DNA of 30,323 nucleotides from IMG/VR virus record IMGVR_UViG_3300017779_000089, positions 1-30,323 of that record, one strand, 5' to 3'. The notes beneath the pieces are model-generated. The model saw only the letters and a program-made list of their open reading frames with translations, did no database searches and was not told the origin of the DNA. A program made the translations under genes and the position numbers. Of this stretch, positions 4,703 through 28,339 are shown one piece after another (the first letter of the stretch is position 1; each line of letters begins with the position of its first letter). The stretch is from a virus.

Positions 4703-5028
4703 ATTATTCTAGTGGCTATTATTTTAGTAAAGTATTTAAAATCTTCATTATAAACTTGATTAATTCTATAATTAGTTACATTACCAACAACCTGTAAAAT
4801 ACTTGTTCTGTTATTTATACTTTCAAATGCTTTTTTTCTACATATAATTTCAATCTGGCTTACCCAACTTCTTTTCCCATCATCAGATTTAATTTCACCA
4901 CTTTTTTCTTGAACATTTGCCCAAATTGTTTTGTTTGTGCTTACAGAATCAGTAAAACCACCAAATCCATCATCAGATTTGTTTACAGTTTTAATTATTA
5001 ATCTTTTATCTAACTTACCTGCATCCAT
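4699..5028 (-). CDS. Head closure protein (head-tail joining, SPP1 gp16-like)
   Basis: The 109-residue product starts M-D-A-G-K-L-D-K-R-L-I-I and continues with D-G-F-G-G-F-T-D and T-I-W-A-N-V-Q-E-K-S-G. It ends with Y-F-T-K-I-I-A-T. This is the typical architecture of the phage head-tail joining family (PF05521) that plugs the connector after packaging. It is adjacent to the gp6-like connector and the gp10-like gene, overlapping each by 1-4 nt. Confidence 0.8.
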   Translation of the reverse strand: MDAGKLDKRLIIKTVNKSDDGFGGFTDSVSTNKTIWANVQEKSGEIKSDDGKRSWVSQIEIICRKKAFESINNRTSILQVVGNVTNYRINQVYNEDFKYFTKIIATRII

Positions 5029-5537
5029 TATACAAACATACTTTTATATGAGCTTAAAATATCTCTTGTACTTGTTGGTATGTCACTCACAGCTGCACCA
5101 ACTTTAAAATCAGCTCTATTGTCATAATATGTGGAACATAATTGTAAAATTGCTTGTTTTAAAAGAGAATCATCTAAACCAGCTGTAATATAAACAACTG
5201 TTACTTTTTCAGCAGCACCATTATTTAATTCAATGCTTTCATTATCTAAACCAATTACAGTGTGTCCAACACTTGAACCATCAGCTGTAATACTTGAAAT
5301 TGATGCTACAGGGTTAAATGGTAAATCAAATATGCCATTTGTATTGTCCATGTAATATGATCTGTTCTTAGCAACTATATCTCTTGATATATAATTTTCA
5401 CACCATATTCTTGCCTGTTTGATTATATCAGCTATCAATGTATCATCACTAGATGTATCAATCCTAGCATAGTCCTTGAATTCTTGTAATGTTACTATTT
5501 CTGATCCTGTAGTTGAATTTATTTTAATCTGTCGCAT
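5028..5537 (-). CDS. Head-tail connector protein (gp6-like adaptor)
   Basis: The product is about 169 residues from the ATG at 5537. A TTG 21 nt upstream could also open this frame but would extend the overlap with the preceding gene. The motif order is V-T-L-Q-E-F-K-D-Y-A-R-I-D, then D-D-T-L-I-A-D-I-I-K-Q-A-R, then L-P-F-N-P-V-A-S-I, then a helical segment K-Q-A-I-L-Q-L-C-S-T-Y-Y-D-N-R. It matches the HK97 gp6 / phage QLRG connector family that forms a ring below the portal. It is the first of a chain of overlapping connector and completion genes. Confidence 0.85.
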   Translation of the reverse strand: MRQIKINSTTGSEIVTLQEFKDYARIDTSSDDTLIADIIKQARIWCENYISRDIVAKNRSYYMDNTNGIFDLPFNPVASISSITADGSSVGHTVIGLDNESIELNNGAAEKVTVVYITAGLDDSLLKQAILQLCSTYYDNRADFKVGAAVSDIPTSTRDILSSYKSMFV

Positions 5538-5727
5538 TTTTTGTCTCTTTAGAATCAATTTTCATTTCTTTTGTTACCTTCTTCACCTTTGCTTCTTTGT
5601 TTTTTATTGGTTCAACCCAATTCTTTTTAATCATATTTTGAGCTTGTTCATCATTCATGTGTACTTCTTCACCAGCATTTATTATATGATTACCATCTTT
5701 TAATTGAATTTTAGCTTTTACTTTCAT
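5524..5727 (-). CDS. Small conserved head-region protein (67 aa)
   Basis: The ATG at 5727 (MKVKAKIQLKDG) is preferred. A longer frame from 5781 would run through the terminator hairpin. The N-terminal half resembles the small beta-rich phage proteins with pattern K-V-[KR]-x(5)-G-x(5)-G-E-E-V-x-[MV]-x(4)-A-x-x-[LM]-I found between capsid and connector genes. The C-terminal half is a Lys/Glu-rich tail. The function is unknown. It opens the connector operon just after a terminator and a candidate promoter, and overlaps the connector gene by 14 nt. Confidence 0.7.
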   Translation of the reverse strand: MKVKAKIQLKDGNHIINAGEEVHMNDEQAQNMIKKNWVEPIKNKEAKVKKVTKEMKIDSKETKNATD

Positions 5728-5742
5728 AATAAAAATTTTATG

Positions 5743-5750
5743 TAAAGATA
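5743..5750 (-). promoter_or_regulatory. Candidate -7 box (TATCTTTA, 7 of 8) for connector operon
   Basis: The minus strand reads TATCTTTA, one mismatch from TAnnTTTG, ending 15 nt before the ATG at 5727. This is the same distance as the exact boxes elsewhere in the window. It lies directly after the terminator T-run, where a restart of transcription would be needed for the connector and lysis genes. Confidence 0.3.
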
Positions 5751-5786
5751 AAAAAAAAGCAGCACTCGAATAAACCAGCACTGCTT
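5750..5786 (-). terminator. Rho-independent terminator after the nuclease gene
   Basis: On the minus strand a 10-bp stem (5777-5786 with 5757-5766, including two G-U pairs) with a 10-nt loop is followed by a run of nine Ts. It lies 12 nt after the stop of the PD-(D/E)XK gene and before the connector operon. Confidence 0.8.
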
Positions 5787-5797
5787 CTTATAGCTAT

Positions 5798-6172
5798 TTA
5801 TGAAATCAGTGCAAAGTTATTAAAATTATCTTTATACTTATTATATAATGACAATCTTAATGTTTTTTGACCTTCATTTTTTAAAATAAAAAACCCTTTA
5901 TATTCTTCACTCCATAAAGCAAAGTAATCTACATAGTTAGGATCATATGAAGGATTACCAGTTCTTTTCAAAGTTACCTGTGTAGATCTTCCATGTTTAT
6001 ATCTGTTTGCACCTAGATATTTAACTTGGAATTTAAATAACTTGCCATTTTTTTCTAATATGCAATCATACATACTTGAATCAAGCAAGGGCATTGAAAC
6101 ATTAAAACCCCTTTTTATAGCTGTCGTTGCAAAGTGATATTCAGCAAAGCATCCTTTCTGATTACCATTCAT
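5798..6172 (-). CDS. PD-(D/E)XK endonuclease (PF11645-like, homing-type)
   Basis: The 124-residue product begins N-Q-K-G-C-F-A-E (Glu11), then has a helix, then R-G-F-N-V-S-M-P-L-L-D-S-S-M-Y-D (Asp36), then K-L-F-K-F-Q-V-K-Y (Gln49, Lys51). Order and spacing match the PD-(D/E)XK endonuclease group that includes the intron-encoded I-Ssp6803I. The catalytic core is intact. It would cut double-stranded DNA, perhaps as a free-standing homing or mobility nuclease or a moron. It stands alone between two strong terminators inside the head region and has no tight overlap with structural genes, unlike its neighbours. A 15-nt palindrome abuts its start. Confidence 0.75.
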   Translation of the reverse strand: MNGNQKGCFAEYHFATTAIKRGFNVSMPLLDSSMYDCILEKNGKLFKFQVKYLGANRYKHGRSTQVTLKRTGNPSYDPNYVDYFALWSEEYKGFFILKNEGQKTLRLSLYNKYKDNFNNFALIS

Positions 6173-6187
6173 GTTATATAATATAAC
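6173..6187. promoter_or_regulatory. 15-nt palindrome abutting the nuclease start
   Basis: GTTATATAATATAAC is a perfect inverted repeat of 7-bp arms around one central base, immediately upstream of the nuclease ATG. It could be an operator for autoregulation or an mRNA hairpin masking the start. In such AT-rich DNA a chance palindrome is possible. Confidence 0.35.
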
Positions 6188-6218
6188 AAAAAAAACCAGA
6201 TAAATACTATCTGGTTTT
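6187..6218 (-). terminator. Rho-independent terminator after the four-gene mini-operon
   Basis: There is a perfect 10-bp stem (6209-6218 with 6192-6201) with a 7-nt loop, followed on the minus strand by a T-run. It lies about 30 nt downstream of the last small gene of the mini-operon and 15 nt before the nuclease start. Confidence 0.85.
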
Positions 6219-6247
6219 AATAGTCAGTACAAAAACAAACAACAAAC

Positions 6248-6394
6248 TTACACATGAGATGAAAATTCAGACCTGACCAAATCTGTAATTTCACCTAATT
6301 TTTTTAGTATTATAATTTTTTTAACTATTGGTAGTTTTTCCCAAACCTCATGCCCAATACTACTGTTTATTATTTCATCTTCCTTGAGTATCAT
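6248..6394 (-). CDS. Small hypothetical protein (48 aa), island operon
   Basis: The 48-residue product is charged and probably helical, with a core I-V-K-K-I-I-I-L-K-K-L-G-E. It has no recognised domain. It overlaps the upstream membrane-protein gene by 20 nt and is followed by a strong terminator, as expected for the last gene of a short operon. Confidence 0.5.
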   Translation of the reverse strand: MILKEDEIINSSIGHEVWEKLPIVKKIIILKKLGEITDLVRSEFSSHV

Positions 6395-6545
6395 AATCAG
6401 TATTATTTAAGACAGCTATTGCTAAAATTATTAAAACAAAAGAAGTAAAGAAATCCACATAAACCAGTGTGCATCTTACCGCCATAATAAGTAGTAAAAA
6501 ACCTAGGCCTAATCGAATATATTTTCTATTTATTTCGCTGTTCAT
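6375..6545 (-). CDS. Small two-span membrane protein (56 aa), island operon
   Basis: The product has a polar N-terminus, then two hydrophobic segments (L-G-L-G-F-L-L-L-I-M-A-V and F-T-S-F-V-L-I-I-L-A-I-A-V-L) and a short polar tail, NNTDYDTQGR. It is probably an inner-membrane hairpin protein. It overlaps the genes on both sides by about 20 nt in different frames. The function is unknown; exclusion or envelope modulation is possible from size and topology only. Confidence 0.55.
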   Translation of the reverse strand: MNSEINRKYIRLGLGFLLLIMAVRCTLVYVDFFTSFVLIILAIAVLNNTDYDTQGR

Positions 6546-6624
6546 CTTTAATTTTTTTTAACCTTCTAATCTCTTTTTGTTTTTTAACAAAATGTTTTAA
6601 TTGTATTGATCTTCTATGTATCAT
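6526..6624 (-). CDS. Very small basic protein (32 aa), island operon
   Basis: The product is almost entirely Lys, Arg, Gln and Glu with a helical pattern (Q-L-K-H-F-V-K-K-Q-K-E-I-R-R-L-K-K-I-K). It starts 1 nt after the stop of the 28-aa frame and overlaps the 56-aa gene by 20 nt. Coding status rests on the tiling, so it is uncertain. Confidence 0.4.
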   Translation of the reverse strand: MIHRRSIQLKHFVKKQKEIRRLKKIKDEQRNK

Positions 6625-6625
6625 A

Positions 6626-6712
6626 TTATAAATACATTAACTGTACCCATACTCCTAACCAAAAGAAAAAGGAGAGTAGTAATGCTTTAATAAAAAATTT
6701 AATGTCTTTCAT
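6626..6712 (-). CDS. Tiny membrane peptide (28 aa), first of the island operon
   Basis: This frame encodes a single hydrophobic helix (A-L-L-L-S-F-F-F-W-L-G-V-W-V) after MKDIKFFIK. It begins just after the A-rich leader AAAACAAAACAAA, which is repeated before the 46-aa gene, and just downstream of a terminator. It may be a real membrane peptide or a leader peptide for the genes that follow. Confidence 0.45.
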   Translation of the reverse strand: MKDIKFFIKALLLSFFFWLGVWVQLMYL

Positions 6713-6728
6713 TTTGTTTTGTTTTTAA
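6711..6728 (-). repeat. 18-nt direct repeat, copy 1 (translation leader)
   Basis: The minus strand reads TTAAAAACAAAACAAAAT, identical to 6902-6919. It runs into the ATG of the 28-aa peptide. The A-rich sequence probably serves as the ribosome entry region in a Bacteroidota host. Confidence 0.6.
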
Positions 6729-6749
6729 AAAGGGAGCTGTTACACTCCC
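6727..6749 (-). terminator. Rho-independent terminator after the 46-aa gene
   Basis: There is a GGGAG/CTCCC stem (6745-6749 with 6732-6736) with an 8-nt loop, followed by five Ts on the minus strand, 11 nt after the stop of the 46-aa gene. Confidence 0.7.
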
Positions 6750-6759
6750 ATTGTTATTA

Positions 6760-6900
6760 TTATTTTAAAGTTACCTTCCAGATGTTACATATTTTTTTCA
6801 CGTCATCAATTATTAAATCGTTATTGATAAGATATGGAGTCATATCGTTAGTGTTTTTAAATGTTGGATGTTTTACACCATTTTGAGCTAAATATATCAT
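6760..6900 (-). CDS. Small hypothetical protein (46 aa) after the capsid gene
   Basis: The product begins M-I-Y-L-A-Q-N-G-V-K-H-P-T-F and contains a hydrophilic middle with one Cys near the end. No family is recognised. It is a complete unit: the A-rich leader TTAAAAACAAAACAAAAT before the ATG, a TACATTTG box further upstream, and a terminator 11 nt after the stop. Confidence 0.5.
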   Translation of the reverse strand: MIYLAQNGVKHPTFKNTNDMTPYLINNDLIIDDVKKICNIWKVTLK

Positions 6901-6901
6901 A

Positions 6902-6919
6902 ATTTTGTTTTGTTTTTAA
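6902..6919 (-). repeat. 18-nt direct repeat, copy 2 (translation leader)
   Basis: Identical to 6711-6728. Here it ends 1 nt before the ATG of the 46-aa gene. Confidence 0.6.
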
Positions 6920-6926
6920 TTATACT

Positions 6927-6934
6927 CAAATGTA
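6927..6934 (-). promoter_or_regulatory. Candidate -7 box (TACATTTG) for the 46-aa gene
   Basis: Exact TAnnTTTG match on the minus strand, 26 nt before the ATG and downstream of the capsid-gene terminator. The spacing is longer than for the 12-15 nt group. No -33 TTTG box was seen. Confidence 0.3.
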
Positions 6935-6999
6935 AAGAATTCTTTTAAAATAAAAAAATATTTTATATATAAATATTTATCTACCTCATATGAGCGCAT

Positions 7000-7027
7000 A
7001 AAAAAAGGGGATGATAACACCCCCTTT
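7000..7027 (-). terminator. Rho-independent terminator after the capsid gene
   Basis: There is a 7-bp stem AAAGGGG/CCCCTTT (7021-7027 with 7004-7010) with a 10-nt loop, followed by a T-run on the minus strand. It lies about 30 nt after the capsid stop. Such a terminator often follows the highly expressed capsid gene. Confidence 0.85.
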
Positions 7028-7058: not shown

Positions 7059-8252
7059 TTACGGTGTCTCTAATGCTGTTTTTGCTGTGCTGAACACACC
7101 ATCTATTATACCTAATGGTAAATAAGTAGCAAGTGCAATTCTTTCCGCACATTTCACTGTAACAAATCCATCTCTGATGTTTGTTCCATCTTCTCTGTGG
7201 AATGATACAGCAAGGTTTTCTCTAATCCATAACTGACATGAGTTAAAATCTCCAACTAAAAATGAACCGGAATTCACTTCGTTATTGATAATAACAGGTA
7301 CACCCATAAATGATGGTTGCATACCAGCATATACTTGATCTTTTAGATATCTTGACTGACTATCCTTAAGTAATAAAATCTTATGGAAATCAGTTGGATT
7401 TAAAAGAATGTAGTTTGGCTTATAGTTAGACAATGCTAACTGATTGATTGCAGCAACTAGTACATCAAATTCATTTGCACTATCAACTGATTGATAGAAT
7501 GCACCATTTGCTGATACATCAAAGTTAGTACCTGAGTTGTATAAACCTAGTAGGTTTGGAGCAACTCCATTACCACCTAGAATTTGATCATCTTCAACTT
7601 CTAATAGTTTTGCTGGTACTCTGTTTGAGATATAGCTAGTTAATTGCTGAGTGTCATTTAACATTTCATCAGAAATTCTTAGATATGTTCCAATCTTCTC
7701 AACATTAACAGATGTAGCTGTCATATCAAAGTCAGTTTGACCTAGTGTAGCACCTTCATTAGCCGCAGCTGCACCATTAGAATATCCTGATTCTTTTACA
7801 AATCTAACAACATCAGAACCAGTCGAACCATTAGGAATGATTTGTCTCATGTTCTGTGGTCTGTTAGGATCGAATTTAAATCCTGGAACTCTATCTGCTG
7901 CAATTACTTCTCCTGTGTAATCTGCACCTGTAGTCATATCCGCTTTGATTTCAAATGCTGCTGCACTTGAATTACCTTTGACTAAGTTATCAATAGCACC
8001 TTCTGAGATTGCTTTTGTTAAGTTAGTTCTGAAATTTTTTGATTCATTTTTTTTCTCAAACATTTTTTTGTTTTCAACTTCAAATGCATCAAATCTTTCG
8101 TTAAATTGTTTGGTTAGGTTGTCGATTTCGCCTTTAAGAGCTTCATCTGCCTTACCATTAGCACTATCTAGTGCTTGGCCTGTAGCTTTTTCAATCTTCT
8201 CATCAATGATGTTTCCTAATTGATCTAGCTGTTTTTTTACATTTTCTTCCAT
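7059..8252 (-). CDS. Major capsid protein, HK97 fold
   Basis: The product has 397 residues. Residues 1-75 are a charged coiled-coil delta domain, followed by a linker to about 105. The mature part begins in the A-D-M-T-T-G-A-D-Y-T-G-E-V-I region. Typical HK97-type segments follow: R-Q-I-I-P-N-G-S, the glycine-rich E-loop area, V-N-V-E-K-I-G-T-Y-L-R-I-S-D-E-M-L, and the P-domain helix with E-D-D-Q-I-L-G-G-N-G. The C-terminal part has G-V-P-V-I-I-N-N and the final R-I-A-L-A-T-Y-L-P-L-G-I. It forms the icosahedral shell, and the prohead protease encoded 4 nt upstream would remove the delta domain. Confidence 0.95.
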   Translation of the reverse strand: MEENVKKQLDQLGNIIDEKIEKATGQALDSANGKADEALKGEIDNLTKQFNERFDAFEVENKKMFEKKNESKNFRTNLTKAISEGAIDNLVKGNSSAAAFEIKADMTTGADYTGEVIAADRVPGFKFDPNRPQNMRQIIPNGSTGSDVVRFVKESGYSNGAAAANEGATLGQTDFDMTATSVNVEKIGTYLRISDEMLNDTQQLTSYISNRVPAKLLEVEDDQILGGNGVAPNLLGLYNSGTNFDVSANGAFYQSVDSANEFDVLVAAINQLALSNYKPNYILLNPTDFHKILLLKDSQSRYLKDQVYAGMQPSFMGVPVIINNEVNSGSFLVGDFNSCQLWIRENLAVSFHREDGTNIRDGFVTVKCAERIALATYLPLGIIDGVFSTAKTALETP

Positions 8253-8978: not shown

Positions 8979-9182
8979 TTACTGATTTCTTAATAATATT
9001 TCTTCTAATCTTTCACCTTTTTCAAATACAATATTGTTATCCTGTTCAGGTAAAGGTTTATTATGTTTGTTATCTAATAATATTTTTTCTGGTATGCCAT
9101 CTGGAAATGCATTACATCCACCATAAAATAATCTTCTATGTTTACACTTCGCACAAATAAAATTATTTTCTTTATTTTCCAT
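8979..9182 (-). CDS. Small zinc-ribbon-like phage protein (67 aa)
   Basis: The product has C-A-K-C-K-H near residue 10 and a further Cys in G-G-C-N-A-F-P-D-G-I-P, then H-N-K-P-L-P-x-Q-D-x-x-I-x-F. The C-x-x-C...C-x-A-F-P-D-G-I-P pattern recurs, from memory, in small proteins near head genes of many phages and prophages. Zinc binding is likely, but the function is unknown. It overlaps the head morphogenesis gene by 11 nt. Confidence 0.75.
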   Translation of the reverse strand: MENKENNFICAKCKHRRLFYGGCNAFPDGIPEKILLDNKHNKPLPEQDNNIVFEKGERLEEILLRNQ

Positions 9183-10782
9183 AATATTTATTTACTATTT
9201 CTATTACTTTTACTGAATATTTACTAGGTGATGAATTCAAGTGAAACTCTGTCCATGCTTCTGCAAGAAATTCATCAATATTAGTAGATGCATAATTACC
9301 TAAATACACATTGTTAAAAGCAACTGTATTTTTATTTTTTAAATATCCTCGAATTTCCTCTAAATATTTTAATCTCAATTCTTTTAGTTCAGTAAACATT
9401 TGCTGACCTTTATTTGAAATGTTTTTTGCCATTTCCTGTCTAGCAGTTCGTGATGTTATCAAAACATGAGCCATTTCGTGTACAGGTGTAGCCAGATGAA
9501 ATTTGTCTGGGTCAATAGCACTTTTACCTCTTAAATCAAAACCATCTCTGTTAATATTTATTGGGTTCATTTTATCTCTTGATATTTTACTGTATTTATC
9601 ACCTAAATTTATTACTGCTGATCTACCTGATAAAAATGGTTGATAAAATCCCCAATTACTTCGTGTTGACTTAAATCTTAATTTTATTACTGAAAGATTA
9701 TGCCAAGTCGAAAAATTGTATTTTTTAAATAATTTTTTTATTTCTGATTGAATTTGATTATAATCATTTAATGTTCTGTTTCTTGATAATTGTAATTTTT
9801 CTATTGTCAATCCAACATCTTCAAATGTTTCTTTTATCTGTGTTCTAAATTGATTTAATGTAGTAGCAACTCCCTCTACTAGTTCATCACCAGCAGAAAC
9901 AATAGTTTGTACTACAGTATTAGTGATTGTTTCTAAACTAAAATTAGGTATTCTTGATTCACCAATACCTACACCAATATCAGATATTTCTGTAATAGGT
10001 ATTGCACCCTCATCAGGTATAGTAATCATCCTACATCTACAATTTACAGTATTTTTAGCTGAACCCTCTCCAGGCCGCATAATCTCCTCGCCAAAAACAT
10101 TAAAAGGTTCACCCATTCTTCTTTTTTGTCCATTTACCGATTGATGCCAATTTCTAACTCTTGAATCGCCCATAGTAACCCACTGCTTAGACAATTGATC
10201 TTCTGAAAACATTGTCTTACTTGATTCTTCTATGGCAAAGTTAGATGCCCTTGTGCTTTCTGTTCTTACTAATCTTCTTGCTTGATAATCTGAATATTGA
10301 TTAAATTTTTTTCTAAGTATTCTCCCTTTTTCTCTTTCACCTAATCTCATAAAGTCAGGATCTTGCATTAATCTCTGTGTTAAATTAATTAGAGCTGTCT
10401 TTGCTGTACCGGAAACTAAGGGCGCATTATATGCAGCTATTAAGGATCCATAAGTAGAAAATGCATTAGTCCATTTTGGAGTAAAGGGTTTTGGATCAGC
10501 TTTTTTATGATATTTTTCAAAAGATCTAAAATACCAATTAGCTATGTGCAAACCAATATCGGTATATAAGTCCTGGTATTTTTTTACAAAATCCTCTACT
10601 TTAAATAAATTATTAGCACCTGTAGAACCTGTGTCTAAAAAGTTTTCTATTCCTTTATAATAGTTTTTTTTATAAAACTTTCTGATTGATGGTGTTATTC
10701 GCCTTTCTATTGTATCAACTTTGGAATCAAACTCTCTAACATATTTGTTAGATGTGAAATCTTTTATTTGTGTTGATATCAT
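9172..10782 (-). CDS. Head morphogenesis protein (Mu gpF-like) fused to HExxH metallopeptidase
   Basis: The product has 536 residues. Residues 1-255 are a Mu gpF / SPP1 gp7-like minor head protein, with R-R-L-V-R-T-E-S-T-R (169-178), K-Q-W-V-T-M-G-D-S-R-V-R-x-W-H (199-213), and N-C-R-C-R (247-251). Residues 260-340 are a low-complexity helical linker. Residues 345-536 contain a zincin motif H-E-M-A-H (435-439) and a downstream N-I-D-E-F-L-A-E-A-W (501-510) that can supply the third zinc ligand (Glu504 or Glu508). The gpF part associates with the portal inside the head. The peptidase could be packaged and injected, or act in assembly. It overlaps the portal stop by one base. Confidence 0.85.
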   Translation of the reverse strand: MISTQIKDFTSNKYVREFDSKVDTIERRITPSIRKFYKKNYYKGIENFLDTGSTGANNLFKVEDFVKKYQDLYTDIGLHIANWYFRSFEKYHKKADPKPFTPKWTNAFSTYGSLIAAYNAPLVSGTAKTALINLTQRLMQDPDFMRLGEREKGRILRKKFNQYSDYQARRLVRTESTRASNFAIEESSKTMFSEDQLSKQWVTMGDSRVRNWHQSVNGQKRRMGEPFNVFGEEIMRPGEGSAKNTVNCRCRMITIPDEGAIPITEISDIGVGIGESRIPNFSLETITNTVVQTIVSAGDELVEGVATTLNQFRTQIKETFEDVGLTIEKLQLSRNRTLNDYNQIQSEIKKLFKKYNFSTWHNLSVIKLRFKSTRSNWGFYQPFLSGRSAVINLGDKYSKISRDKMNPININRDGFDLRGKSAIDPDKFHLATPVHEMAHVLITSRTARQEMAKNISNKGQQMFTELKELRLKYLEEIRGYLKNKNTVAFNNVYLGNYASTNIDEFLAEAWTEFHLNSSPSKYSVKVIEIVNKYYGK

Positions 10783-13061
10783 TATTCATCGTTTTCTAAT
10801 TGACCTAATTTTCTTTGGGAATAAGATAGCATACTTTGACCACCCCAACCTAAGAATGCAACATAACCTTTATCCTTCCATGGTGTATCTCTAAAATCAG
10901 GATTTATTTTATTATAACCACCACCTTTAGTCCTAGATAAAAAGCTAAAAGTTCTTTTTAAAACAGACAAGCTTAATTTTTCCCTTGATATTAATTGGTT
11001 CATTCTTGCAAGTCCTATAGATGTCATTCCATCTACCTCAGCTCTACCATATTTATCAATCCAGTTCTTTACTCTTTTTGCATTGTTAGTTGCTGATTGT
11101 GGATAATCATCATATCCCTCAGCTTTAGCTTCTTTCTTGCTACTTAATGGATGGCCTTTTGGTAATAGATCTGTATCATGTTTACCACTTCTAAATCTAC
11201 CATTTCTCAGACAGTAAAGGAAAGAATTGCACCTGGCATATGCCCACTGGTCAGCACTTGATACACTTGGCCTGACACTACTAGGGTTGGTATTATATGC
11301 GCCAACACCCCTTCTAAAAACAGCTTTTAATGTTCTTAGATTTGTTTTTTGCCATGACTTTGTGACTTTTTCATTGTGATCAGATACTTTTTTTTTTAGC
11401 CCTTTTTCAACTGTAGCTGATATCTTTGCTTTTTCTTCATCCTCATCTTCTTTATGTGGTTTACCATAATGATATTTATTATCCTCTAATGCAGCTGCAT
11501 ATTCTTCATGTGTTTCAAAAGGCATATATATTTCCCTGCCATCATAAGTGTGTGTATGATATCCAGTACCATTACCATCCCAACCCATTTCTCTAGCTCT
11601 GTCCTCTGCTTCTTCTTCTGTTGTATAAGCATCTACAAATGCTTCTATTCTTTCTTTATATACAGTGTTGTATTTATATGATTTATCCATCTCTGGATTG
11701 TCTATATTTATATCAACAACTGGTGCATCAATATCTTGATTATCTATAGGTAAAAGGTTTGCTGGAAAATAATAATCATTCATTGATGGTGTATCATTAT
11801 CATTATCATAATTCATAGCTGATCTCTTTTCATTTGGTGTTAGCCACCATGCTTTTGACATTTGATCAACTACCTTATCAGTTTCTTCTTGTAATTCTGG
11901 TATAACAGAAAAATCATATTCTATACATATATCTTCTCCATACTTAGGAGATAACCATCTATTTAATTCATCTTGTATTTTCTGTAGTTCTGGTATAACA
12001 CAGTTTTGATATAGAGCTTTTTTAGCTTCTTTCATGTTATTATAGGTAGAACTTTCTGTGTTGTTTAAAAGCTGTACAGGTACGTTAAATATGTTACATA
12101 AATCTTTTATAGATGCATTATACTGTTCTATTAATGATAGATCAGCAGTTGATAATCCAAAATTTACCCAGGATAATTTTTTAGGTGTTATAATTACATC
12201 ACCAGCATTATCAGATCCTTGATGTTGCCTTCTAAACTTATCTTTTAGTTGTTGAGCTTGTACTTCATTTAGATCACCTTCTTCTGACATCAATATCCCT
12301 CTGCTAGTTTGGTTTTGTAAAAACTTGACACCTGTTTCAACAGCTTCATTGTTAGTTGTCATAGATCGCATACCAGCTTTTAATGGTGATTGTCCATACA
12401 TATGTGAACCAGAACCATCATAATAAGGATTAAAATCTTTAACATGCAGCATATCTTCTGCTGGTATTCTATATGTACCATTGTACTCTATTGTATAATA
12501 ATCAATAGGTTTCATTAGACCAGCTGTATTAATCTCTACTACATGAGATGGCATAACATATAGCTCTGTGTATTTACCTACATTTTGTCCTGTATCTGGG
12601 CCTAAACCATACACATATCTATTACCGGTTAGTTTACCAAATGCAACCAGCTCAGATATAAATGATGCATATGATTGTGCTGGATTTGGCCTATCCAATA
12701 ATTTATGTAAATCAGTGTGTTGTAATTCTTCTAATGCATGTTTCTTTAGCATGTTAGCTTTTAATATTACAGAAGAATCAACTGTTCCTGAGGATAATGC
12801 TTTATAGCTTTTATATTTATTATCATCAACTTTTCTATATATATGATAGGGTATGGTTGATGCAGCTTTTGTAATAATGTTTATTATGGAGTAAACTGTG
12901 GCATTTTTTCTGTAACCTTCATTAATATAAGTATTATCATTATCTGGATTCCACAGAATACTGTTGCCTAAATAATTATAGATAGCCCTGTTATACTGTT
13001 CATTAGTTTGCTGTGATTTATTAGTTATTAGATATCTTAACCTATCGAAGAATGATGCCAT
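10782..13061 (-). CDS. Portal protein with long C-terminal extension
   Basis: The product has 759 residues. Residues 1-440 are a standard siphovirus portal (Phage_portal, PF04860 type). Visible landmarks are Y-S-I-I-N-I-I-T-K-A (57-66), L-L-D-R-P-N-P (121-127), G-N-R-Y-V-Y-G (146-152), D-M-L-H-V-K-D-F-N-P (203-212), and F-N-V-P-V-Q-L-L-N (325-333). Residues 470-530 hold a short H-T-H-T-Y-D-G-R-E-I-Y-M-P motif. Residues 545-759 form an extra domain with G-A-Y-x-T-N-P-S-S-V-R-P, D-Q-W-A-Y-A-R, G-K-H-D-T-D-L-L-P and G-Y-V-A-F-L-G-W-G-G. Typical portals of this class are about 400-500 residues, so roughly 250 residues are added. The portal ring forms the packaging channel. The role of the extension is unknown. 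Confidence 0.9.
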   Translation of the reverse strand: MASFFDRLRYLITNKSQQTNEQYNRAIYNYLGNSILWNPDNDNTYINEGYRKNATVYSIINIITKAASTIPYHIYRKVDDNKYKSYKALSSGTVDSSVILKANMLKKHALEELQHTDLHKLLDRPNPAQSYASFISELVAFGKLTGNRYVYGLGPDTGQNVGKYTELYVMPSHVVEINTAGLMKPIDYYTIEYNGTYRIPAEDMLHVKDFNPYYDGSGSHMYGQSPLKAGMRSMTTNNEAVETGVKFLQNQTSRGILMSEEGDLNEVQAQQLKDKFRRQHQGSDNAGDVIITPKKLSWVNFGLSTADLSLIEQYNASIKDLCNIFNVPVQLLNNTESSTYNNMKEAKKALYQNCVIPELQKIQDELNRWLSPKYGEDICIEYDFSVIPELQEETDKVVDQMSKAWWLTPNEKRSAMNYDNDNDTPSMNDYYFPANLLPIDNQDIDAPVVDINIDNPEMDKSYKYNTVYKERIEAFVDAYTTEEEAEDRAREMGWDGNGTGYHTHTYDGREIYMPFETHEEYAAALEDNKYHYGKPHKEDEDEEKAKISATVEKGLKKKVSDHNEKVTKSWQKTNLRTLKAVFRRGVGAYNTNPSSVRPSVSSADQWAYARCNSFLYCLRNGRFRSGKHDTDLLPKGHPLSSKKEAKAEGYDDYPQSATNNAKRVKNWIDKYGRAEVDGMTSIGLARMNQLISREKLSLSVLKRTFSFLSRTKGGGYNKINPDFRDTPWKDKGYVAFLGWGGQSMLSYSQRKLGQLENDE

Positions 13062-20492: not shown

Positions 20493-20523
20493 AAAAAAAA
20501 AGCAGCCAATAAATAGCTGCCTT
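20493..20523 (-). terminator. Rho-independent terminator after the SSB-like gene
   Basis: There is an 8-bp stem with one G-U pair (20516-20523 with 20499-20506) and a 9-nt loop, followed by nine Ts on the minus strand, about 24 nt after the stop of the SSB-like gene. Confidence 0.85.
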
Positions 20524-20546
20524 TCTCCCCTTAGTTGTTTGCAAAA

Positions 20547-20897
20547 CTAAAATGGTAGGTCATCATTATTTTTAGGTGGAGGTGGATTACCTGTAATCTG
20601 TGTATCATTATCAGAAACACCATTAACTTTTTCAATAAACCAACCTTGGATTGAATTGAAATATTTAACCTGATTGTCTTTATTACTCCATTCTCTACCC
20701 TTAATATTGATACCTATTTTAACTTCCTCACCAACATTATATGTATTTAAAACATCACATTTGTCTTGTACAAATTCAACTAATATGTTTTGAGGATATT
20801 GCTCATCAGTAGTCAATACCAGATCTCTTTTTGTGAAACCATTAGATCCATATTCTTTAGTTTCATCAATTGATTTAATTTTACCTTTTATTTCCAT
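20547..20897 (-). CDS. SSB-like DUF3127 protein
   Basis: The 116-residue product matches the DUF3127 pattern well: M-E-I-K-G-K-I near the start, K-R-D-L-V-L-T-T-D-E-Q-Y-P-Q, V-E-F-V-Q-D-K-C-D-x-L, N-I-K-G-R-E-W-S-N and K-Y-F-N-S-I-Q-G-W. It ends in a Pro-rich linker and acidic D-D-L-P-F tip like bacterial SSB tails that bind partner proteins. This family is characteristic of Bacteroidota and their phages. It likely coats single-stranded DNA during replication and recombination. It is followed by a strong terminator and overlaps the 54-aa gene by 10 nt. Confidence 0.9.
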   Translation of the reverse strand: MEIKGKIKSIDETKEYGSNGFTKRDLVLTTDEQYPQNILVEFVQDKCDVLNTYNVGEEVKIGINIKGREWSNKDNQVKYFNSIQGWFIEKVNGVSDNDTQITGNPPPPKNNDDLPF

Positions 20898-21808: not shown

Positions 21809-21835
21809 AAATTAAATTTGTTGCAATGTATAAAA

Positions 21836-21851
21836 TTATTTTTAAAAATAA
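21836..21851. promoter_or_regulatory. 16-nt palindrome upstream of the HTH regulator
   Basis: TTATTTTTAAAAATAA is a perfect inverted repeat 27 nt before the regulator ATG, in the promoter region of the early operon. It could be an operator for the HTH protein. Pure A/T palindromes are frequent by chance in this genome. Confidence 0.25.
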
Positions 21852-21869
21852 AAAAATATTTATAATAAA

Positions 21870-21904
21870 GAACCCCCTAAAAATAAAAAACAATTAGAGG
21901 GTTC
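21870..21904 (-). terminator. Hairpin between tail and early modules
   Basis: GAACCC (21870-21875) pairs with GGGTTC (21899-21904), extended by CTAA/TTAG around an internal mismatch, with an A/T-rich loop. It is followed by a short T-rich stretch on the minus strand. It sits 26 nt after the distal tail gene stop and probably ends the tail transcript. Confidence 0.6.
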
Positions 21905-21929
21905 AAGCAAACAAAGGAAAGGGAAAATC

Positions 21930-28331: not shown

Positions 28332-28339
28332 CAAATTTA
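28332..28339 (-). promoter_or_regulatory. Candidate -7 box (TAAATTTG) for the tail operon
   Basis: Exact TAnnTTTG on the minus strand, 14 nt before the ATG at 28317. The box and the following TGTAAAAAA are nearly identical to the sequence before the fibre gene (1798-1805). Confidence 0.4.

Follow-up and report, generated by a model that had tools for sequence, protein, structure and literature searches.

A terminator-bounded island with a replaceable leading cassette and a fixed nuclease may form an early-type expression slot within the late head operon of marine phages

The window analysed here is a whole 30.3-kb virus record (30,323 nucleotides) in which all main genes, and all features described below, lie on the minus strand. 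Profile matches identified an HK97-type capsid, a Terminase_3 and a gp6-like connector, and further frames were read from their translations as portal, tape measure and primase/helicase. The island studied begins behind the HK97-type major capsid gene (7059–8252; Phage_capsid PF05065, E 4e-34), which is its upstream flank here and its left flank in all relatives, and ends at the connector operon, which is opened by a DUF7210-like gene (5524–5727; DUF7210 at E 8e-4, under the curated cut-off, and phrog_2616 at E 1e-7) ahead of the gp6-like head-tail connector (5028–5537; PF05135, E 7.6e-11; phrog_40) that forms the downstream flank. Elsewhere in the window, a portal-like gene of 759 codons (10782–13061) carries a C-terminal extension of ~300 residues past the usual portal, and the C-terminal part of a MuF-like head protein (9172–10782) contains a metallopeptidase-like HExxH motif (HEMAH).

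A search with the capsid gave 80 relatives with capsid identities of 68–94%, and 52 distinct islands were compared. They share one order: behind the capsid stop come terminator T1 and an A/T-rich stretch with TAnnTTTG at its end, next the variable leading part and the core small genes, and then T3, the nuclease gene, T4, a TATCTTTR box, the DUF7210-like gene and the connector. In the window, a standard scan for a hairpin with a T run found T1 (7004–7027, ~32 nt past the capsid stop), a weaker internal T2 with a short T run (6732–6749) and T3 ahead of the nuclease gene (6192–6218), and a wider detector caught T4 behind the nuclease gene (5754–5789), which has a 10-nt loop and was missed by the standard scan. 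T1 and T3 were present in 52/52 distinct islands, T4 in 51/52 and the internal T2 in 11/52; the total is three in 39 of the islands and four in 12. Against the four terminators of the window island, 200 dinucleotide shuffles gave 0.1 on average and never more than 2, and the 52 islands together held 167 terminators against 7 in shuffled islands; their density in the islands, 1.68/kb, is ~10 times the 0.175/kb of the flanks. T1 and the other stems vary in sequence between lineages with pairing kept, and in T4 the T run and 3′ arm are more conserved than the 5′ arm. The same leader, AAAAACAAAACAAAA, stands after T2 and ahead of the 46-aa ORF. According to one detector, the sense strand of the window is almost without further strong terminators, and the sole other one (20493–20529), with a 16-bp stem, lies directly after the gene at 20547–20897.

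Between T1 and T2 lies a 46-aa ORF (6760–6900), the leading, exchangeable cassette of the window and a singleton among the 73 clusters into which the island ORFs fall. Behind T2 follows a chain of four genes with 20-nt overlaps. The chain starts with a 28-aa predicted single-span membrane peptide (6626–6712), which has position-equivalent hydrophobic ORFs of 28–43 aa in relatives, and continues with three core genes: B, a 32-aa basic protein (6526–6624; homologues in 43/52 islands), M, a 56-aa predicted two-span membrane protein (6375–6545; 45/52) in whose alignment A4, R24 and D31 are invariant, and A, a 48-aa charged protein (6248–6394; 37/52). Besides B, M and A, nearly all clusters are found in few islands and belong to the leading part, and across the 52 islands turnover was limited to the leading cassette. 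The small island proteins matched no known family in Pfam, PHROGs or PADLOC beyond isolated weak matches. The initial annotation had described four minus-strand terminators between capsid and connector that part a 46-aa gene, a chain of four overlapping genes for 28–56-aa products and a PD-(D/E)XK nuclease; every terminator was recovered at its claimed place, and the frames between them are as described.

The gene between T3 and T4 encodes a 124-aa PD-(D/E)XK nuclease of the I-Ssp6803I type (5798–6172; phrog_5018), which matches PF11645 with E 1.5e-13 and 51 bits, against a cut-off of 26. Its profile matched the I-Ssp6803I structure (PDB 2ost) with E 1.6e-5, and 2ost was also the best PDB fold match of an AlphaFold2 model with pLDDT 86 (Foldseek E 5.7e-8, TM 0.72–0.76). 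The catalytic residues E11, D36, Q49 and K51 (I-Ssp6803I numbering) are invariant in 32 aligned members; the D, Q and K align with 2ost, and the 2ost chain has Gln at the Glu site. The nuclease occupies the same site in 163/163 relatives with both flanks and in 74/74 distant ones. No empty site was found among the 163 relatives, and no nuclease was found elsewhere down to 43% nuclease identity (43–99% range) or 53% capsid identity. The spacing between nuclease and connector is 251–298 nt, and that between capsid and nuclease is 645–2226 nt.

The boxes after T1, T3 and T4 are conserved and placed like a Bacteroidota-type -7 box, and a -33 TTG is clear only at the first of them, P1. The -7 box of P1, TACATTTG (6927–6934), lies past the conserved A/T-rich spacer, about 100–150 nt downstream of the capsid stop, and reads TAnnTTTR in 49/52 islands. 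A candidate promoter with a TAnnTTTG box of the Bacteroidota type, P1 resembles the promoter of the early/replication operon upstream of 21808. When P1 was set against the early promoter within each genome, p was 0.002 in the window, L027, L054 and L058 and <0.01 in three more, and the similarity was not significant in the L044/L042/L048 group. At the tail-to-early junction (21809–21929), a hairpin terminator is followed by a TAnnTTTG-type promoter and then by an HTH gene, and this terminator-then-promoter layout was also present in the 17 relatives examined (L097–L113).

Behind T3, a TATATT box (P3, 6180–6185) stands 7 nt upstream of the nuclease ATG as a candidate promoter for a leaderless mRNA. 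A TAnnTT box ending 5–8 nt before the nuclease ATG or GTG is present in 52/52 islands, with a spacing of 6 in 33 of them, compared with a background of 18% for such a box before other ORFs. In Flavobacterium psychrophilum the promoter box is placed at -12 to -5, and leaderless mRNAs are a minority class of 5.5% (PMC9723704). By that placement, the spacing of P3 would put the start at or next to the start codon, and the nuclease mRNA is therefore probably leaderless. P4 (5743–5750) is a TATCTTTA box fused to the T run of T4, and TATCTTT[AG] sits directly on this T run in 52/52 islands. Its extended motif, TAnnTTTRYAnAAA, occurs in the window in 7 sense and 0 antisense copies. Late-promoter-like copies 20–25 nt ahead of structural gene starts lie at 28339, 25979, 13086, 8966, 5750 and 1805, and five copies stand 22–25 nt before structural genes, including those for tape measure, portal and protease. 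Relatives have 125 sense and 5 antisense copies, of which 102 lie 20–30 nt before an ORF. Because of this strand bias and the position before structural genes, we assign P4 to a late-promoter family. That P1, P3 and P4 serve as promoters, and at what time each acts, is what we infer from these signals; a scan for the sigma-70 consensus gave no information, with 119 matches against 126.5 expected.

One more conserved box, TAACTTTG (5812–5819), lies inside the 3′ end of the nuclease gene, 62–98 nt upstream of the P4 box. It is invariant and its codon choice is frozen: its Asn codon is AAC in 52/52 islands, although AAC makes up 25% of the Asn codons in these genes, and the neighbouring codons vary. 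This suggests some DNA or RNA element overlapping the end of the nuclease gene, and the box could be a further promoter, giving an RNA of ~60 nt ended by T4.

The promoter boxes, the lack of a Shine-Dalgarno-like 4-mer at all 41 gene starts of the window (0/41), the terminases nearest to that of the window, which belong to Bacteroides phages (about 40%), and the Cellulophaga and Flavobacterium phages among the matches of its primase/helicase together suggest that the host is probably a marine member of the Bacteroidota. The sole match in a genome collection was L191 (PBPJ01000031.1), a phage contig of the group placed in a metagenome-assembled genome labelled Woesearchaeota archaeon RS366, and this label is probably the result of mis-binning.

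Replacement of the leading segment was examined in 98 distinct capsid-to-connector regions, among which 53 pairs reach an identity of 94% or more on each flank. In 42 of these 53 near-identical pairs, which are not independent of each other, the leading segment of one member has been replaced relative to the other, as in L001/L002, L029/L030/L031 and L043/L045. In 23/42 pairs, no more than 6 nt separated the left edge of the replaced segment from the end of a -7 box, and the -7 box of P1 is the usual left edge. The right edge often coincides with a start codon or lies close to one, commonly that of the 28-aa membrane-peptide gene, and in some pairs it falls at a different core gene. These edges are the limits of homology rather than the sites of strand exchange. 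A cassette can also move without the nuclease: L002 and L005 have one cassette at 97% identity with nuclease genes only about 74–84% identical, and the nuclease genes of L001/L002 and of L003/L005 are 98–100% identical, yet the cassettes differ. In L020 and L021 a terminator-promoter unit is repeated inside the island. The simplest mechanism for the replacement would be homologous recombination in the conserved flanks, that is, capsid-T1-P1 on one side and the core genes and nuclease on the other.

Several leading cassettes of 270–700 nt have no long ORF (L002:7322-7669, L005:4054-4401, L015:6656-7175, L020:1212-1721, L021:1183-1757, L023:7335-7929, L040:2171-2534 and L080:7315-7625). Apart from GTTCATTRAAATA, which stands a short way past the P1 -7 box, they are mostly unrelated to each other, and two types have a common core, AACAGGCGTAAATGGGGACATTTAC...AGTAATCAACTCTA...GTAAGGTTT. 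GTTCATTRAAATA is reminiscent of boxA, an antitermination element in rRNA leaders, and a search of the literature found no paper supporting a boxA-like reading. Against Rfam, none of these cassettes matched at the gathering threshold and nothing was convincing at E values up to 10; their fold energies could not be separated from those of coding cassettes, and a scan of the collection with the core motif of one cassette returned chance matches only. New non-coding RNAs with a boxA-like head are possible, and because of the missing Rfam match and the undistinctive fold energies we treat an RNA function as a lead only.

These comparisons also bear on how the island was first interpreted. Comparing its blocks across relatives, as had been proposed as a check, gave conserved fixed terminators (51–52/52) and a variable leading cassette. 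The initial annotation had read the blocks as separately acquired expression cassettes, and this holds in part: the terminators do separate expression units and one of these is exchangeable, but the four-gene chain was not recently acquired. Its recent joint acquisition is ruled out by three of the four genes, which are conserved in 37–45 of the 52 islands. The products had further been suggested as possible early or membrane-active factors, which is consistent with the resemblance of P1 to an early promoter and with two products predicted to be membrane-embedded. Because the small proteins match no known family, an anti-host role is something we infer. The invariant Arg and Asp of M and the early-type promoter of the island point to envelope- or defence-directed early factors; the most likely function of the small products is to act on the envelope or the defences of the host early after infection, and we hold the anti-host role at slightly below even odds.

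The terminators, the conserved boxes, the fixed nuclease and the cassette swaps can be seen directly in the compared genomes, and because each fixed terminator adjoins a conserved start signal the island appears early-type and insulated. We therefore propose, with a probability of about 0.72, that it is an insulated early-type expression slot within the late head operon of a large marine phage group. Late transcription would be halted by T1 behind the capsid gene, and a separate transcript would be launched from P1, a promoter of host type that is similar to the one at the replication operon. The first part of this transcript would be a plug-in cassette, swapped by homologous recombination in the flanks, and the second part would contain the conserved tiny genes for the membrane peptide and the basic, two-span membrane and charged proteins. 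T3 would terminate the transcript, P3 would start a probably leaderless mRNA for the fixed I-Ssp6803I-type nuclease with its intact active site, T4 would end this mRNA, and late transcription would resume at the connector operon from P4, the late promoter joined to T4.

Alternatively, the terminators could only tune gene dosage in one late operon, and the small genes could be minor late or virion genes that are not controlled separately. T1 lies directly behind the capsid gene, a common place for transcript attenuation (T-phi after gene 10 of T7 is an attenuator behind the abundant capsid message), and the T run of T2 is weak. However, every fixed terminator precedes a conserved -7-type box, P1 resembles the early-operon promoter and not the late motif, and attenuation by itself gives no reason for cassettes to have an edge at the -7 box, which makes dosage tuning quite unlikely compared with an early-type slot. 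The initial annotation had also suggested a mobile nuclease element. A homing-nuclease element that brought passenger genes in between capsid and connector, and that still moves together with them, would agree with the sequence and predicted fold of the I-Ssp6803I family and with the absence of the insert from phi18:1, in which capsid and connector are 70 nt apart with nothing between. Because the nuclease was never absent and never found elsewhere, it is not mobile in this group: a mobile homing endonuclease was rejected since neither a mixture of occupied and empty sites nor several sites were seen. The constant distance to the connector and the cassette that L002 and L005 have in common in spite of their diverged nuclease genes also argue against movement as a unit, and the element is largely refuted at this evolutionary scale and, in our view, highly improbable.

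The fixed nuclease might have a role of its own. Head-module HNH proteins of other phages are virion or packaging helpers, and a similar function, with the position beside the slot accidental, would fit a gene that is always in the head module, keeps its distance from the connector and is never lost; but the nuclease is parted from the head genes by T3 and T4, has its own start signal and is lacking in phi18:1, so that we consider this role unlikely, while giving it some weight. A domesticated homing nuclease that cuts co-infecting relatives near the slot, and in this way drives cassette replacement, would account for the permanent linkage of a nuclease with an intact active site to the fastest-replaced segment. 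Near-identical nucleases are nevertheless found with different cassettes, a cassette has moved without its nuclease, and plain homologous recombination in the conserved flanks suffices, leaving nuclease-driven exchange quite unlikely. The slot might also be an actively maintained exchange site, with the resident domesticated nuclease or the inverted repeats of the flanking fused terminator-promoter junctions promoting replacement of the neighbouring cassette in mixed infections, and with a payload that would include, besides tiny proteins, 300–700-nt non-coding RNAs with a GTTCATTRAAATA head; we rate this wider reading as similarly unlikely.

We file the island as a moron-type accessory locus, organised like PeSL promoter-terminator cassettes. 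It is inserted between genes that are adjacent in phi18:1 and, judged by sequence only, has its own promoter (P1, 49/52) and terminator (T3, 52/52). Its base composition differs from that of its neighbours: T1–T3 is A/T-rich, with a G+C content of 0.247 compared with 0.348 for the capsid gene and 0.308 for the connector, although A/T-rich intergenic parts lower the T1–T3 value anyway. In the Bacillus phage SPP1, the moron ORF 14 lies between the capsid module and the head-completion genes (PMC6316719), and here too small, dispensable-looking genes with transcription signals at their borders break the head gene order at the same place. Unlike the SPP1 morons, the slot, promoter, terminators, small-gene core and nuclease are conserved group-wide, and turnover is confined to the leading cassette with edges at the promoter and a start codon. 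As described in PMC4503421, the PeSL cassettes of T4-type phages (Arbiol 2010; Comeau 2014) likewise place a composite terminator and early promoter, as in T1-P1, beside small variable ORFs, and use conserved regulatory DNA as a common flank for shuffling, of which the swap outcomes are what is seen here. They belong to T4-type myoviruses with sigma-70 early promoters, whereas the present phages are unrelated HK97-type siphophages with TAnnTTTG boxes, in which a single fixed locus lies within the late head module and the terminator-promoter junctions further downstream are of two other types. The nuclease is like I-Ssp6803I in fold, Pfam family and catalytic residues, but it is free-standing and fixed in head modules, with no intron and no sign of mobility. 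In archaeal viruses, anti-defence genes were found by means of regulatory sequence (PMC11065993), and there too one conserved early regulatory sequence precedes accessory genes that vary; the islands described here, in contrast, are from bacterial phages, and any anti-defence activity of theirs is hypothetical.

What is new here is a group-wide fixed address with three kinds of terminator-promoter junction, a permanent homing-type nuclease and sharp cassette edges. The island also offers a case in which an early unit would be insulated in a late operon by terminators fused to three promoter types, and it poses the question of why a homing-type nuclease stays fixed beside a replacement hot spot. 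It also provides a positional rule, by which the segment from the P1 -7 box to the first core gene would be the most recently exchanged early-type payload, and therefore hundreds of unannotated small proteins and RNA-like segments may be collected in an abundant marine phage group. Such fast-evolving and probably host-targeting genes could then be screened for anti-defence, superinfection-exclusion and host-takeover activity.
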